Below are positions 18,815 to 56,947 of a DNA stretch of 64,000 nt, in pieces. A program made the translations under genes and the position numbers. Source of the stretch: Stratiformator vulcanicus (GTDB taxonomy: Bacteria > Planctomycetota > Planctomycetia > Planctomycetales > Planctomycetaceae); assembly GCF_007744515.1 (NCBI RefSeq), contig NZ_CP036268.1, positions 5,164,202 to 5,228,201 on the forward strand, written 5' to 3'. Within the stretch, counting starts at the first letter, position 1. Every line of letters starts with the position of its first letter. Under the pieces are notes generated by a model. The model did not search any database. It worked only from the letters and a program-made list of their open reading frames with translations, and had not been told where the DNA came from.

Positions 18815-19150
18815 TCAAAACCATTCGCGTTTGCCGACGACATACGTCTCGACAAATTCTTCATCGGTTTTCGTCAGGTAGATAATGCCCTCGGCGATGC
18901 TGATGACCTGCATGGCGATCGCGCCAAGGATCGGAATAATCAGGCAGAAGCCGAAGAAACCACAGGAGACCGTGATTGCCAACATAATGGCTCCGGCGAC
19001 CGGCATGTCGAGAATGAATTTGTGGATGCCCAGACCCGGCAGCAAGATCGCGATCAGCCCTGCCGCGAGCTTCTTCTCTGCACCGGGTGGCGCAGCGCGA
19101 TAGACCGGCTGCGGAGGTGGCTGTTGGGTGTCGGACGGGTCGCCGCTCAT
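18815..19150 (-). CDS. TM2 domain protein (proximal copy)
   Basis: 111-residue membrane protein, longer than its neighbour by a Pro/Gln-rich N-terminal tail (DTQQPPPQPVYRAAPPG). Then AEKKLAAGLIAILLPGLGIHKFIL, a second helical pair of hydrophobic segments, and an end EEFVETYVVGKREWF matching EFVDTYVNAEKPWF in the downstream copy. The two genes are 34 bases apart on the same strand and probably arose by tandem duplication. The start is an ATG at 19148-19150. TM2 proteins are found from bacteria to animals and this one adds nothing that shows its job. Confidence 0.85.
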   Translation of the reverse strand: MSGDPSDTQQPPPQPVYRAAPPGAEKKLAAGLIAILLPGLGIHKFILDMPVAGAIMLAITVSCGFFGFCLIIPILGAIAMQVISIAEGIIYLTKTDEEFVETYVVGKREWF

Positions 19151-19326
19151 CAGGCTCGCTCAGTGCTGAACATCATCGGTCTGTGGACATCAACATAGAC
19201 GACGCTGTCGGCTCTTCAAGCAGAATCGCCACTACCGATCCGGCAACGGCGAAATTGGCGACCCGGATCACGAAAATCTTCGCGAAAGTCCCGCTTTTCG
19301 GGTGATCGCCTATACTGGTCGGCATC

Positions 19327-21630
19327 ATGTCCGACAGCCCGCTCGACAGCCCCGCCCAATATCTCAAAGGAGCCGGCCCCCGCCGCGCGGCCGCCCTTGA
19401 GAAATTGAACCTCTCGACCGTCCGCGACGTCCTGTTCAACCTGCCGCGCGACGTACTCGATCTGACCGATGTGAAGTCGGCCTCTGAGCTGACAGGCAAG
19501 TCGATCGAGACGGTCCGCGGCGTCGTGGTTGATCGCGACGCCCGGCTAATCTCCCGCGGCCGGTCCATGACCACCATCCTGCTCGACTCTGGCGGCGAGT
19601 ACGTTCGCGGCGTGTGGTTCAACCAGCAGTGGATTCTCAAAAAATACTCCGATGGCGAGCCGCTGCTCTTCAGCGCGAAAGCTAAGAAACGCGACGGCCG
19701 CTGGGAGATGTCGCATCCCAGAGTGCAACAGTTGGGGGAGGACGAGGCGGCGGAGAGTTTAGAGTTGAGGGGTGAGAGGTCAGAGAAAGAATTACTCGAT
19801 CCGCAACCCTCACCTCTCACCTCTCACCCCTCACCTCTCACCACTCCGCATGGCGAGGTCCTCCCGCGGTATTCGCTGGTTGAGGGCCTCACGATGGAGG
19901 CGTTGCGGACGATCTCGCGGGATGCTGTTGATCGGTATGCCGGTGAAGTCAGCGACCCCCTGCCCGCGACGTTTCGGGACGAAGCCGCTCTACCCGAACT
20001 CTCGGACGCGATGCGGGCGCTGCATCGACCGGCGACTGTCGCCGCGTTCGAAGAGGCGAAGCGACGAATTCTGTTTGACGATCTGTTCGAGTTTCAGATC
20101 GGCATGGCGCTGCGCCGCCGGGCGTGGACGGCGACCGACGGCTCGCCGCGCATCGAAACGCCTGCCAAGGTCGACGCCCGCATCCGGCGGCTGTTCCCCT
20201 TTGAATTCACGCCGGGGCAGAATCAGGCGATCCGGGAAATCACGAGCGACCTTGCCACGCCGCGGGCGATGCACCGGCTCCTTCAGGCAGACGTTGGTGC
20301 CGGCAAGACGGTCGTTGCGGTTTACGCGATGCTCTCAGCTATTGCGGCGGGGTATCAGGCGGTCGTGATGGCTCCGACAGAAGTGCTCGCCAATCAGCAT
20401 TGGAAGACGATCGACGCCGCCTTGTCGCGCAGTCGGGTCAAGCGCCGCCTGCTGACCGGCTCGCTGACCCCTGCCGAGCGCAAGCGCACGCTTGCCGACA
20501 TCGCCGAAGGGAAAGTCGACCTCGTGGTTGGCACTCAGGCACTGATTCAAGAAGACGTGACGCTTCCGCGGCTGGGCCTCGCGGTGGTCGACGAACAACA
20601 CAAATTCGGCGTCGCCCAACGCTCGCGATTCGCTCGCGCGAATGAGGTTGAGAGTTTAGAGACGATAGGAGAGCAAGCAGTTAAAGACGCTGACCTCTCG
20701 TCTCTGAACTCTCAACCGGAAGCGTCAGCTCCGCATCTGCTCGTGATGACCGCGACTCCGATTCCGCGATCGTTGTGCCTGACGCAGTTCGGGGATTTGG
20801 ACGTGACGCGGATCACCGATCTCCCCCCCGGTCGGCAGCGCGTCGTGACGAGCCGTGTGGATGGCAAACTGGGACGGAAAAAGGCATGGGAATTCATCCG
20901 CCAACGGCTCGCCGAAGGACGGCAGGCCTACGTCGTCTGCCCACGCATCGAACCGAACGGCGAGGACCTTGATGCCGCGGTGCCGGGGAGCGTGGAGACG
21001 GTGTTCGAGCGGCTTCGCATGAACGAACTGAGCGAGGGGTGGGGCGAGGCGGGAGATCGGACGAACAAAGACTCGCCCGCTCCCGAAGTCGCTCTGCTTC
21101 ACGGGCGGATGTCGTCCGATGAGAAAGACGCCGTGATGACGGCGTTTCGTCGCGGCGACATCCGGGTGCTCGTGACCACCACCGTGATCGAGGTCGGGGT
21201 CGACGTGCCCAACGCGACGTTGATGGTCATCTATCAGGCCAACCGCTTCGGGCTCTCGCAGTTGCATCAGCTCCGCGGACGCATCGGACGCGGTCGGCAC
21301 CAGGGGTATTGCTTCCTGCTGCCCGATGGCGAAACCGACGACGCGACGAAGCGACTGGCGGTGATGGAACAGACGAGCGACGGCTTCAAGATTGCCGAAG
21401 CCGACTTCGAAATCCGTGGTCCCGGCGACGTGCTAGGCACCCGGCAATCGGGGGGCATGCCGCTGCGCGTGGCTCACCCCGGTCGTGATTTGGAGCTGCT
21501 GATCGAGGCACGCCAGCACGCTTTCAACACCGTCGACTCTGGTGCAATTGACGCGGGGGCGTGGGACGAGGTCCGGCAAGTGGTACTCTCACGCTTTGCC
21601 GAAACACTGGACCTGCCGCAGGGCGGGTGA
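19327..21630 (+). CDS. recG: ATP-dependent DNA helicase RecG, with inserted repeat-coded segments
   Basis: 767 residues. RecG reverses stalled replication forks and processes branched DNA. An N-terminal wedge/OB part (YLKGAGPRRAAALEKL) is followed by helicase motif I ADVGAGKT (about residue 320), DEQH with HKFGVAQR, MTATPIPRSL and motif VI LRGRIGRGRHQGYC. It is longer than E. coli RecG (about 693). The excess comes from segments that look inserted: residues 140-175 from a quasi-palindrome at 19753-19846, residues 440-465 from one at 20646-20717, and a weaker one near 21031-21085. All keep the frame. They fall at linkers between structural elements, so the enzyme may still work. Confidence 0.93.
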   Translation: MSDSPLDSPAQYLKGAGPRRAAALEKLNLSTVRDVLFNLPRDVLDLTDVKSASELTGKSIETVRGVVVDRDARLISRGRSMTTILLDSGGEYVRGVWFNQQWILKKYSDGEPLLFSAKAKKRDGRWEMSHPRVQQLGEDEAAESLELRGERSEKELLDPQPSPLTSHPSPLTTPHGEVLPRYSLVEGLTMEALRTISRDAVDRYAGEVSDPLPATFRDEAALPELSDAMRALHRPATVAAFEEAKRRILFDDLFEFQIGMALRRRAWTATDGSPRIETPAKVDARIRRLFPFEFTPGQNQAIREITSDLATPRAMHRLLQADVGAGKTVVAVYAMLSAIAAGYQAVVMAPTEVLANQHWKTIDAALSRSRVKRRLLTGSLTPAERKRTLADIAEGKVDLVVGTQALIQEDVTLPRLGLAVVDEQHKFGVAQRSRFARANEVESLETIGEQAVKDADLSSLNSQPEASAPHLLVMTATPIPRSLCLTQFGDLDVTRITDLPPGRQRVVTSRVDGKLGRKKAWEFIRQRLAEGRQAYVVCPRIEPNGEDLDAAVPGSVETVFERLRMNELSEGWGEAGDRTNKDSPAPEVALLHGRMSSDEKDAVMTAFRRGDIRVLVTTTVIEVGVDVPNATLMVIYQANRFGLSQLHQLRGRIGRGRHQGYCFLLPDGETDDATKRLAVMEQTSDGFKIAEADFEIRGPGDVLGTRQSGGMPLRVAHPGRDLELLIEARQHAFNTVDSGAIDAGAWDEVRQVVLSRFAETLDLPQGG
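19753..19846. repeat. Quasi-palindrome of GAGAGG-type words in frame inside recG
   Basis: The left part has GAGAGTTTAGAGTTGAGG and GTGAGAGGTCAGAG. The right part has CCTCTCACCTCTCACCCC and CTCACCTCTCACC, an inverted, degenerate copy of the same words around a loop of about 20 bases. The translated segment is charged and Ser/Pro-rich and looks unlike RecG, with a PSPLTSHPSPLT repeat. The words also recur elsewhere in this window. Confidence 0.8.
20646..20717. repeat. Second in-frame quasi-palindrome inside recG
   Basis: Arms of 20 bp, 20646-20665 and 20698-20717, are inverted copies with one mismatch (left arm GGTTGAGAGTTTAGAGACGA). The loop is 32 bases. The segment lies between the DEQH motif and TATPIP. 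It uses the same GAGAGTTTAGAG word as the first recG repeat. The reading frame stays open and no stop is introduced. Confidence 0.85.
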
Positions 21631-21638
21631 GCCGGAGA

Positions 21639-21718
21639 GATAGGAAATAGGGGATTGGGGATTGGAAATACGCTGGCAGGCCTGTCCCTTACTCATCCCC
21701 CATCCCCTATTTCCTATC
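21639..21718. repeat. 24-bp inverted repeat directly after recG
   Basis: Arms at 21639-21662 and 21695-21718 are inverted copies with one mismatch; the left begins GATAGGAAATAGGGGATT. The words repeat inside each arm (AGGAAATAGG, GGGGATTGGGGATT). It begins nine bases after the recG stop and is not followed by a T-run, so a terminator role is uncertain. It is the intergenic counterpart of the in-frame repeats within recG. Confidence 0.85.
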
Positions 21719-21778
21719 GCCGAGTCGTTTTGTGGCACAACTGACCATTGGAGCTTGGATTTTCTAGCGGAGCGGGAC

Positions 21779-22240
21779 ATGGCTGAAGCACTCAGGGAAC
21801 TGTCGCTGAGCTCGTATCCGGAGATCGCGGCTGAGATCGAGCGGTTGGAGCGCGCGGGTTACCGACCGCTCGGGAAGTGGAATCTCGGGCAAATCTGCAA
21901 GCACCTAAATTACTACTTTCGCGGCTCGCTCGACGGCTTCGGCTTCATGATGCCCTGGCTGGCCCGCAAGTTCTGGGGCCGACCGCTGGTGATGAAATTT
22001 CTGGTCGAAGGCAGCATGCGCCGCGGCCAGATGACCGCCCCGCAATCGGTTCCCAAGGGCGAAGTCGACGATGCGGCGGAAATCGCAGCCGCGAAAGAAT
22101 TGCTCTCGCGGCTGGAAACGGCAGACTCGGTGCACCCCTCACCGCTCGCGGGCGAACTTTCTGTCGAAGAATGGAAGCGGCTGCACTGCATCCACGCCGC
22201 GCACCACCTCAGTTTTCTGGTGCCTGAAGAACAAGAATGA
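21779..22240 (+). CDS. DUF1569 (DinB-like) protein
   Basis: 153 residues. Contains LGKWNLGQICKHLNYYFRGS and, near the end, CIHAAHHLSFL. His residues in these places are the presumed metal ligands of the DinB/YfiT fold (four-helix bundle), which DUF1569 resembles. No known substrate; thiol-transferase-like chemistry is typical for the fold. The ATG at 21779 begins a natural N-terminus (MAEALRELSLSSYP). Its stop codon overlaps a REP unit (22239 on), so the repeat sits right at the gene's end. Confidence 0.8.
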   Translation: MAEALRELSLSSYPEIAAEIERLERAGYRPLGKWNLGQICKHLNYYFRGSLDGFGFMMPWLARKFWGRPLVMKFLVEGSMRRGQMTAPQSVPKGEVDDAAEIAAAKELLSRLETADSVHPSPLAGELSVEEWKRLHCIHAAHHLSFLVPEEQE

Positions 22241-22271
22241 GTGGCACGGACAACGTCCGTATCTCGCGCTG
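22239..22271 (+). repeat. REP unit upstream of RAYT, GTGG foot
   Basis: GAGTGGCACGGACAACGTCCGT: foot GTGG and a hairpin whose stem pairs CACGGAC with GTCCGT. It overlaps the TGA of the DUF1569 gene (22238-22240). The same unit recurs at 22952, 23121, 27653 and 39335. It is the first element of the RAYT flanks. Confidence 0.8.
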
Positions 22272-22283
22272 CTTCATAGCTCG

Positions 22284-22348
22284 ACAAGCCGCGCACGAAG
22301 TAAGCGGATCAACCCGTGCGATATCCGCTCACTTCGTGCGCGGCTTGT
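22284..22348. repeat. 26-bp inverted-repeat element, copy 1
   Basis: Left arm 22284-22309 begins ACAAGCCGCGCACGAAGTAA. Right arm 22323-22348 is its inverted copy with one mismatch. The loop is 13 bases. An exact relative lies at 56876-56947 and a solo arm at 35416-35441. It lies between two REP units upstream of the RAYT. Confidence 0.9.
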
Positions 22349-22374
22349 ATTCGTTGACCTTTCTGACTTCGCTC

Positions 22375-22424
22375 AATGCTCTTGCGGCTGCGCCGCCCGG
22401 ACGGTGTCCGGGCCACACGAGGAG
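22375..22424 (-). repeat. REP unit (inverse orientation) just before RAYT start
   Basis: Two hairpins, GCGGCTGCGCCGC and CCGGACGGTGTCCGG, followed by GCCAC, which is the complement of the GTGG foot. The unit is the mirror of the GTGG-footed REPs. The ribosome-binding site GAGGAG of the RAYT gene begins about three bases past its end, so a folded REP could influence translation. Confidence 0.8.
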
Positions 22425-22433
22425 TTGCTAATT

Positions 22434-22943
22434 ATGCCGGTTTCTAGACGCATTATTGATGACCGGCTCTACGTTCACTTCGTGACGTTTTCTTGCTACC
22501 GGCGTCGGATGCTGCTCGATGCCGACCGATCGAAGCGCATCGTTCTAGGGTGTCTGCATTCCGAAATGCAGCGACAGGCGGCGAAGTGCGTGGGATTCGT
22601 GTTGATGTCGAACCATGTTCACTTTCTGCTCTGGTTCGATGTGACGGACCAGCTCTCACATTTCTTGAAGGATTGGAAGCGGAACAGTTCATCGGAGCTC
22701 GCGACGTTCCTGCGGCGGACTGAATATGGAAAGTCGATTCCTCCCAGTGACCCGATTTGGACGCCGCGGTACTACGCCTTCGAAATTGAGACCACGGGAG
22801 TGCTTGAGCAGAAGCTGAATTACATCCACGACAATCCTGTTCGGGCAGGGATGGTCTCCCGACAGGCCGATTATCGGTGGAGTTCGGCGCGCTGGTACGA
22901 ACGGCGAGAGGATGTCGGTATCCCAATCTCGTGGACTGACTGA
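22434..22943 (+). CDS. REP-associated tyrosine transposase (RAYT, Y1 family)
   Basis: 169 residues, single-domain HUH-type nuclease related to IS200/IS605 transposases. The conserved HUH appears as SNHVHFLLWF, and the usual opening RLYVHFVTFSCYRRR is present. The catalytic Tyr lies in the C-terminal helix region near LNYIHDNPVRAGMV (family motif Y-x-x-x-NP). RAYTs act on REP hairpins and recognise a tetranucleotide at their foot. It is surrounded by such REPs on both sides, so the unit looks like a complete REPtron. ATG 22434 has a strong GAGGAG seven bases upstream. Mobility of the family is generally limited; activity here is inferred only. Confidence 0.9.
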   Translation: MPVSRRIIDDRLYVHFVTFSCYRRRMLLDADRSKRIVLGCLHSEMQRQAAKCVGFVLMSNHVHFLLWFDVTDQLSHFLKDWKRNSSSELATFLRRTEYGKSIPPSDPIWTPRYYAFEIETTGVLEQKLNYIHDNPVRAGMVSRQADYRWSSARWYERREDVGIPISWTD

Positions 22944-23270
22944 ATAAATCAGAGTGGCACGGACAACGTCCGTGTCGCGCAGCGACCAGAGCACTCAGCT
23001 CACCATTTCGAGCTTGTCGGGGCGCTGACCACAATCGAAAGAGTCAGCTGAATGCTCTTGCGGCTGCGCCGCCCGGACGATGTCCGGGCCACACGAGGAA
23101 TTGATTGACTGAATAGACCAGAGTGGCACGGACACCGTCCGTGTCGCGCAGCGACCAGAGCACTCAGCTCACTGTTTCGAGCTTGTCGGGGCGCTGACCA
23201 TTATCGAAAAAGTCAGCTGAATGCTCCCGCGGCTGCGCCGCCGGGACGATGTCCGGGCCACACCGGCAAA
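22933..23270. repeat. Tandem duplication of a 169-bp REP-pair unit after RAYT
   Basis: Copies at 22933-23101 and 23102-23270. Each contains the last bases of the RAYT gene (TGACTGAAT), a GTGG-foot REP (GTGGCACGGAC...GTCCGTG then GTCGCGCAGCGAC), a spacer with GAGCTTGTCGGGGCGCTGACC, and an inverse REP (GCGGCTGCGCCGC, CCGG...TCCGGGCCAC). The two differ at scattered bases, such as ACAACG versus ACACCG, so the duplication is not brand new. Confidence 0.85.
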
Positions 23271-27621: not shown

Positions 27622-28020
27622 GGGTCCGCTGTGCGGACCAGCGTTTAATCCGAGTGGCACGGACACCGTCCGTGCGGCGCAGCCGCCAGAACGGGTAGCC
27701 CGGCCCAACTCGGGCCGGGTCGCGAAGCGACAAGAGGCGATTCATTAAGAAGGCAATTGATGGGTTCATCCACTGCAAAAAGGCGTGGCATTGCCCACGG
27801 AACATGGGCATGAGTATTAAACGTGACAGGCATTAGAAAACCAAAACCGCAGGGTGGCCCGGACGCTATACGTCCGGGTCGCGCAGCGACAAGAGGTCTC
27901 AGTGCGCTGCCGATCATAAAGCGTCTGCAGCGAGTTGATGCCCAGCCCTGAGACCTCTTGCGGCTGCGCCGCCCGGTTCTATAGGAACCGGGCCACCCGC
28001 TAAGAAGCTGATCGGCGGGT
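27622..28020. repeat. REP cluster left of the two-gene island
   Basis: Contains several hairpins: GGTCCGC-TGT-GCGGACC (27623-27639), a GTGG-foot REP with GCGGCGCAGCCGC (27653-27687), CCCGGCCCAACTCGGGCCGGG, a variant REP GTGGCCCGGACGC...CGTCCGGGTCGCGCAGCGAC (27854-27890), and an inverse REP GCGGCTGCGCCGCCCGGTTC...GAACCGGGCCAC (27960-27996). The last 55 bases of interest (27928-27982) recur at 30249-30303. Confidence 0.8.
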
Positions 28021-51643: not shown

Positions 51644-52573
51644 TCATGCCGCTTTCGCGAACTGATCCGGCTGTTCCCACGCCACCACCCCCACCGTCAC
51701 GGCCGGCCCGGTTAATCGAATCTGACTACCGGCATTAATCCAGCTCACCTGCAGGTCGCCGCCGGGGAGGTGGCAGGTGGCGTCGCGGTTTAAGAGGCCC
51801 GCGTGAATGCCTGCGGCAATGGCCGCGCAGGCGCCGGTGCCGCAGGCAGCGGTTTCGCCCACGCCGCGTTCCCAGACGCGGAGGGCTACGTCGGTTCGGG
51901 AATTAATTCTCGCAAATTCAACGTTGGTGCGATCGGGGAAGGCGGGATGAGTCTCAATGGCCGGACCGAGTTCGTGAATTAATTCATCGCTTAACTCGTC
52001 GACGAAGAACACGCAGTGGGGATTGCCGACTTGGACGACGGTTGAGGGTTGCGGGACGACGGAGAGATCGGCTTGGCGGAGCTCTTGGAGCGGCCAGATT
52101 TTATAGCGATCGGGAGGCGGTCCCTGGAGTCCCTTGCTTGCGCTGCGGGCTTGTGTGTTTTTGTCCTCTCGCCTCTCGCCTCTGGCCTCTAGCCTCACAT
52201 TCCCCATCCACACGCTGACGCTGACAACTTCGCCCGCGACAACTTCAAGTGTGAGTTCTCGCTTGCCCGAAGCGGTGGCGATCGTGGCGTCTTTGCGGCG
52301 GATGTATTTGTGGTCGTAAAGATATTTCCCGACGCAACGCAGGCCATTGCCGCAGGCGCCGGCTTCGCTGCCGTCGGCGTTAAAGATCCGCATGCGGGCG
52401 TCAAGGCCGCTGGCGTGCTCCAACACGATGAGCCCATCGGCCCCGGGACCGGTCGAGCGATCACAGGCTCGCGCCGCGATCGAAGCGAAGTCGAGATGCG
52501 GGGGAAGGGGGAGATCGAGGCCATCAATGAGCAGGAATTCGTTTCCCGCTCCGTGCATTTTAGTGAAGAGCAT
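51644..52573 (-). CDS. dapF: Diaminopimelate epimerase with a repeat-coded insertion
   Basis: 309 residues; typical DapF is about 275. Interconverts LL- and meso-diaminopimelate for peptidoglycan and lysine. Both catalytic Cys motifs are intact: ACGNGLRC and AACGTGACA. MLFTKMHGAGNEFLLIDGL opens it. The excess is about residues 125-155: RLEARGERREDKNTQARSA then SKGLQGPPPD. This peptide is encoded by the 26-bp element at 52129-52154 and by CCTCTCGCC-like words at 52165-52198, so mobile-type DNA has been absorbed without frame loss. It lies on a surface loop, since both active-site regions are far from it in sequence. Confidence 0.92.
   Translation of the reverse strand: MLFTKMHGAGNEFLLIDGLDLPLPPHLDFASIAARACDRSTGPGADGLIVLEHASGLDARMRIFNADGSEAGACGNGLRCVGKYLYDHKYIRRKDATIATASGKRELTLEVVAGEVVSVSVWMGNVRLEARGERREDKNTQARSASKGLQGPPPDRYKIWPLQELRQADLSVVPQPSTVVQVGNPHCVFFVDELSDELIHELGPAIETHPAFPDRTNVEFARINSRTDVALRVWERGVGETAACGTGACAAIAAGIHAGLLNRDATCHLPGGDLQVSWINAGSQIRLTGPAVTVGVVAWEQPDQFAKAA
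52129..52154 (-). repeat. 26-bp element translated in frame inside dapF
   Basis: On the minus strand it reads ACAAGCCCGCAGCGCAAGCA followed by AGGGAC, encoding T-Q-A-R-S-A-S-K-G within DapF (frame offset by the neighbouring codon). Other copies are at 39465-39489 and 54479-54504, both intergenic. It is the clearest case of a repeat family entering a coding region in this window. Confidence 0.9.
52160..52199. repeat. Pyrimidine word repeat inside dapF
   Basis: A run of CCTCTCGCCTCTCGCCTCTG and GCCTCTAGCCTC repeats the seven-base word CCTCTCG or variants. It is translated in DapF as part of the E-A-R-G-E-R-R-E segment on the minus strand. No inverted arm was found within it. Confidence 0.7.
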
Positions 52574-52705
52574 CTTGAGTCGAGAGTTTAGAGCAACGAG
52601 AAGGTTGAAGCGGTGAGCGAGAAGCGAAGTAACGTCGCTTCGCGTTTCTAGCTCATCGCTTCTTGCGATGAACCCGGCAGGTGTGCCACGAACCCGCTCG
52701 CGCGG
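52574..52705. repeat. Word-repeat palindrome upstream of dapF
   Basis: Left GAAGCGGTGAGCGAGAAGCG (52607-52626) and right CGCTTCGCGTTTCTAGCTCA continuing TCGCTTC (to 52661) are inverted with two mismatches and a two-base offset. A second word (GAGAGTTTAGAG) at 52582-52593 is shared with recG. It lies between dapF and the Uma2 gene and holds dapF's promoter area. Confidence 0.7.
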
Positions 52706-56875: not shown

Positions 56876-56947
56876 ACAAGCCGCGCACGAAGTAAGCGGA
56901 TGAACGGGCGGCGCAACATCGATCCGCTTACTTCGTGCGCGGCTTGT
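56876..56947. repeat. 26-bp inverted-repeat element, copy 2 (perfect arms)
   Basis: Left arm 56876-56901, right arm 56922-56947, with no mismatch. Left begins ACAAGCCGCGCACGAAGTAA. The 20-base loop is unrelated to that of copy 1 at 22284-22348. It lies between convergent genes (DUF4886 and DUF3500), eight bases after one stop and 11 before the other. No T-run. Confidence 0.95.

Follow-up and report, generated by a model that had tools for sequence, protein, structure and literature searches.

Palindromes built from seven-nucleotide words lie in frame within recG of Stratiformator vulcanicus and recur across its genome

Many bacterial genomes contain an excess of heptamer repeats, and the accessible text of the literature compared here names no function for them and puts polymerase slippage forward no more firmly than as a hypothesis. 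G-rich heptameric repeats have been described in Xanthomonas (GGGAATC) and Nostoc (GGGGA(C/T)T) (Rehm et al, 2015; PMC4692102). According to the accessible part of that paper, about 70 of 186 heptamer sites in X. campestris form convergent inverted pairs, and sites of the Xanthomonas type are kept between close relatives while their lengths and sequences differ. TAACTGA heptamer repeats occur in Beggiatoaceae, cyanobacteria and Bacteroidetes, where they sit near start codons (MacGregor, 2015; PMC4679880). Rickettsia palindromic elements (RPE) form families of ~150 bp with conserved sequence (Ogata et al, 2000, 2002, as given in the accessible text of PMC10969869), and REPs tagged with GTAG/CGTC lie in frame in many repair genes (Di Nocera et al, 2013; PMC3733652), recG being absent from the text of that paper.

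The DNA analysed here (the window) is a stretch of 64,000 nucleotides from S. vulcanicus that contains recG and the following features.

19327..21630, forward strand: recG, host of the inserts; 767 aa, matching NCBIfam RecG and aligned with 29 relatives
19750..19849, forward strand: site 1, in-frame heptad palindrome in recG, arms 19750-19785 and 19814-19849, adding ~31 aa (AESLELRGERSEKELLDPQPSPLTSHPSPLTT)
20646..20717, forward strand: site 2, in-frame heptad palindrome in recG, 72 nt or 24 codons, adding 24-27 aa (VESLETIGEQAVKDADLSSLNSQP)
21031..21085, forward strand: additional linker stretch in recG of ~15 aa, claimed as a third palindrome, not palindromic beyond chance
21639..21718, no strand assigned: heptad palindrome 3′ of recG, beginning 9 nt past the stop, with the words ATAGGAA ATAGGGG ATTGGGG

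The original prediction had claimed four inverted repeats at this locus, and three of them withstood scoring, shuffling and folding. Their arms measure 36 nt at site 1 (86% complementary, loop of 28 nt), 29 nt at site 2 (20646-20674 and 20689-20717; 86%, loop of 14 nt) and 24 nt in the 3′ element (21639-21662 and 21695-21718; 96%, loop of 32 nt). The inverted-repeat scores were 21, 18 and 21, respectively, compared with a top score of 14 in 200 order-2 Markov shuffles of positions 19000-22500; the native top score in that interval, 23, came from a repeat flanking a RAYT gene (22284-22348). RNA folding gave z values of -5.6, -8.1 and -4.7, which no shuffle out of 200 equalled. The stretch at 21031-21085, proposed as a third palindrome inside recG, fell away at this point (folding z -0.3; 73 of 200 shuffles equally good). 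Its linker varies in length, being 47 aa here and 26-114 aa in relatives (median 31).

The RAYT gene lies at about 22434-22943, at most 0.9 kb from the recG stop. The REP-type inverted repeats that flank it (22284-22348 and 23035-23180), of which more copies are found at 27852-27998 and 56876-56947, are distinct from the heptad class in their sequence. Inspection of the three recG-locus elements revealed neither a REP tag (GTAG/GGAG or CGTC) nor a conserved stem common to them.

The arms are degenerate tandem arrays of 7-nt words, for example GAGAGTT, GAGAGGT and ATAGGGG. The site 1 arm reads GAGAGTT TAGAGTT GAGGGGT GAGAGGT CAGAG, with the complementary array beyond the loop, and lag 7 was the best period in all three elements. 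The original prediction had noted neither this 7-nt word period, which defines the class, nor the intergenic position of most copies. Permuting word order within single elements gave fractions of 0.07, 0.14 and 0.10 for the arm register, a test underpowered for any one element. The architecture is shared with the Xanthomonas and Nostoc heptamers, which in the accessible description are likewise degenerate 7-nt tandem arrays, dispersed and mostly intergenic near gene ends, and which also form convergent inverted pairs. However, the elements here do not belong to the same named family, because that family is defined by a G-tract word (GGGNATC or GGGGAYT, four units, with G4 potential), whereas the recG inserts carry GAGAGTT/GAGAGGT and words containing GGGG occur only in the 3′ element. 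The TAACTGA repeats are similar in being dispersed heptamer arrays, patchy over phyla, with 7-nt indels between strains, but they consist of one fixed word in direct orientation with a single inverted exception.

RecG was aligned with 29 relatives, 24 of the same family and none of the same genus. Around site 1, the region is 45 aa long in S. vulcanicus but only 12-18 aa in every one of the 29 relatives. Around site 2, its 41 aa compare with 14-18 aa in 26 relatives, and the other three (L012, L014 and L017) carry extra sequence of their own that differs from the S. vulcanicus insert. Because both palindromic segments are missing from the RecGs of all 29 relatives, they are insertions, and their boundaries coincide with the inverted-repeat ends or lie within a few nucleotides of them, as the check proposed with the original prediction asks of insertions. 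The expectation that they would sit where other RecGs have short linkers was likewise borne out by the solved RecG chain 9wm0 (693 aa), in which the aligned blocks abut at site 1 (query 139|172, chain 139|140) and are six residues apart at site 2 (query 434|463, chain 409|415). An AlphaFold model, made with an alignment of 15 RecGs, assigned pLDDT <50 to residues 140-174 and 437-464, which are precisely the two inserts, and this low model confidence suggests that both are disordered. MITEs have conserved terminal inverted repeats with a target-site duplication and are related to a known transposase; by eye, no obvious duplication was seen at the recG boundaries, which no close empty-site genome defines.

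The recG reading frame is open throughout, in agreement with the original description of segments that preserve the frame and bring in no stop, and tolerance of insertion into the protein is supported. A computed flip of the loop leaves the frame open at site 1 and creates a stop at site 2. The purine arm in recG uses GAGAGTTTAGAG and not GAGAGTTGAGAG, which would read TGA; with two cases, and with both variants existing elsewhere, this is suggestive of stop avoidance. The recG case suggests that heptad repeats can lengthen a core protein while leaving its reading frame undisturbed.

The wider genome was sampled through the window and 100 stretches of 20 kb each, together ~39% of 5.23 Mb. Strong lag-7 arrays numbered 33 in 2.0 Mb, whereas the remaining lags between 4 and 22, leaving aside multiples of three, gave 0-5 each. 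The word sets are of the GAGAGGT/GAGAGTT/GAGTCGA, GAAGTCA, GAAGCGA, GCTATCA and GGGGATT types. The same words were found at unrelated loci, which the original prediction had named as support for insertion: GAGAGTTTAGAG has nine copies in the genome, two of them within recG, and multi-word blocks are repeated at unrelated loci (for example, site 1 and L071 match over 26 nt at 96%). BLAST of the recG elements against the sampled 2 Mb matched heptad words only, with no shared core or loop sequence. Four consecutive GARNYNA words matched 120 times here versus 7 for a backwards control. Across the phylum this pattern is patchy, being present in 64 of 294 genomes, a tally that is an upper bound for the GARNYNA word set because some of those genomes have as many control matches. 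In four genomes (G119, G115, G106 and G265) the backwards-control matches outnumber those of the heptad pattern, and other word sets may dominate there.

Within 2.06 Mb, 28 inverted repeats passed the heptad filter. Inspection left ~18 convincing ones, which are almost all intergenic. Neighbouring informative arrays within 250 nt of each other were inverted in 8/8 cases here and 2/2 in family relatives, and in 4/6 cases at the RecG loci of named planctomycetes and other phyla. Large ORFs with arrays at L207, L224 and L277 had no Pfam match and are probably spurious. At L063 (10959-11154, genome G000), a 136-nt heptad array was observed between the halves of a GTAGGGCGGGCTGTGCC-type REP repeat.

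Orthologous copies were compared in g75, a genus of another family in the phylum represented by two species (G070 and G192), over ~45 kb with a flank identity of 90-94%. There, 132 lag-7 arrays were found in 229 kb versus 1-2 for other lags, and 53 of 55 neighbouring arrays were inverted, with none direct and two ties. Heptad-armed elements are very dense in stretches L270-L283 and L310-L313 of these species. Most g75 elements enclose a ~45-nt REP-like, GGAG-tagged core with GGAGTTT and GCGAAGCG motifs. Words vary among copies, while the two arms of a given copy resemble each other more closely than they do the arms of other copies (permutation p 0.016 and 0.0002). Between the two species, steps of 7 or 14 nt separate orthologous arms; six sites have an inverted core according to an automatic score (four of them unambiguous), while at three it is kept; and at other sites one species has a different heptad element or none, although some of these replacements may be misaligned or lost arms. 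In g75, sites persist and elements turn over. The observations of length steps, core flips and replacement come from g75, and it is period, words and inverted pairing that lead us to regard the recG and g75 elements as one putative class, the recG copies being without a g75-type core.

Other genes also contain in-frame copies. Within the window these concern dapF:

52165..52196, reverse strand: heptad array in frame in dapF (ORF 51647-52705, reverse strand), encoding RLEARGERRE
52607..52662, no strand assigned: weak inverted repeat of heptads immediately upstream of dapF

The dapF array is single, with no inverted partner, and is missing in relatives; it adjoins a REP-like remnant. In a DUF7133 protein of genome G001, the Pfam domain is split by a heptad inverted repeat, the break falling at profile position 91|97. 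Among other RecGs, that of G020 (L014) has heptad arms enclosing ~170 nt of REP-like sequence in the site 2 linker, that of G012 (L021) has CGAACAT heptad words at a further linker, site 3, and two from Omnitrophota (L142 and L148) have in-frame heptad copies at site 3. Several additional sequences were noted at this third site: a similar REP-like sequence in frame in G020 (GGCGCAGCCGGCGGGCTTC), a short palindrome beside the CGAACAT heptads of G012, also in frame (CCCCCCCTTACTAAGGGGGGG), and, in the named RecG loci L155 and L156, long linkers whose peptides look REP-encoded (CHPEAKPKDLR..., ARGCLAALPATRNDN). Since RecG loci were oversampled, this recurrence does not show a preference for RecG.

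Two described systems share this behaviour. The likeness to RPE proposed in the original prediction holds as an analogy, since short palindromic inserts are tolerated in frame in unrelated genes (here recG, dapF as a single array, and the G001 DUF7133 gene), but does not extend to a common sequence family: compared with the RPE of the accessible text, the copies here share just 7-nt words and architecture, and they occur in other phyla. Intragenic REPs (PMC3733652) are also in-frame palindromic inserts, found repeatedly in replication and repair genes and sometimes at the same site in relatives; unlike the present elements, they are tetranucleotide-tagged stem-loops and not heptad arrays. In-frame protein inserts, core flipping and word replacement are undescribed for the Xanthomonas and Nostoc heptamers in the accessible text of PMC4692102.

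The reading we favour, with a probability of roughly 0.6, is that these heptad palindromes are dispersed and unstable and, within genes, survive only when in frame at tolerant linkers. Each would consist of a degenerate tandem 7-nt array and, beyond a short core, a second array of matching words in inverted orientation, and the class would lie mostly between genes. Slippage would grow and shrink the arrays, and the paired arms could form hairpins on single-stranded DNA. Template switching or recombination between arms might then keep the arms matched and flip the core, and might also copy or exchange elements between loci. Gene-breaking insertions would be purged by purifying selection, so that coding DNA would keep only in-frame, stop-free copies at tolerant linkers, and the encoded peptides, judged from the model, would be passive disordered loops. 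A bolder proposal, which we put forward tentatively, is that heptad-armed palindromes are a distinct element class, neither conventional transposon nor passive microsatellite, whose matched arms act as exchange ends that flip the core, permit whole elements to replace one another where the site stays fixed, and allow in-frame entry into proteins.

The alternative that survives best, though we think it rather unlikely, is growth in place, in which purine-rich seeds in recG were expanded by 7-nt slippage and a single fold-back template switch produced the inverted arm, with no movement between loci. Slippage is one hypothesis that has been put forward for heptamers (Mrazek, 2007, cited in PMC4679880 and the accessible text of PMC4692102), and the steps of 7 and 14 nt in g75 agree with it; however, the same few word sets and multi-word blocks at many unrelated loci argue against purely local origins, and replacement of a word set at the same site is hard to obtain from slippage alone.

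We also consider it unlikely that the elements are non-autonomous mobile elements of the REP/REPIN type, moved by a RAYT (Y1) transposase and with heptad arms as accessory or degenerate ends. Y1_Tnp matches number 11 in this genome, including the one near recG, and 1-2 in each g75 genome, where most heptad elements enclose a tagged core, and REPs in frame in repair genes are known. Nevertheless, neither a consistent tag nor a REP core is seen in the recG elements, the REP families of the REP-rich genomes examined here are separate ones whose lag-7 identity is close to background, and in g75 only 63 of 131 core motifs lie within 110 nt of heptad arrays, about half falling outside them, while some heptad pairs are core-less. 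Involvement of RAYT in heptad elements is possible, though the recG copies lack a REP core.

Selection for a function, either as a RecG linker or as an mRNA hairpin governing recG expression or transcript ends, is improbable: the hairpins are very stable, the 3′ element has a terminator-like position and Xanthomonas heptamers cluster near gene ends (accessible text of PMC4692102), but no relative needs the inserts, low model confidence points to disorder, and lineages differ in sites and words. Finally, nothing was found in favour of the segments being ancestral and lost by relatives, arising by chance or reflecting faulty assembly, and we regard this as scarcely credible, as the relatives were examined for conservation of the same residues and, like the aligned solved structures, have none (an ancestral origin was rejected for this reason), 200 shuffles gave no comparable inverted repeat, and the class is found throughout a single-contig genome.

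Inverted heptamers in Xanthomonas and intragenic REPs in repair genes are already known; judged by the searchable open-access literature, heptad palindromes as protein inserts appear new, as do core flipping and turnover. To what is known of heptamer repeats, the dispersed heptad palindromes favoured here add inverted pairing, in-frame entry into core genes, where different lineages have the insert at the same protein linkers, and orthologous copies that flip or are replaced in sister species, and the origin of heptad arrays becomes testable in species pairs. Heptad inserts also account for odd low-complexity linkers in annotated proteins, and heptad repeats are a little-understood, fast-changing class throughout this and related genomes.
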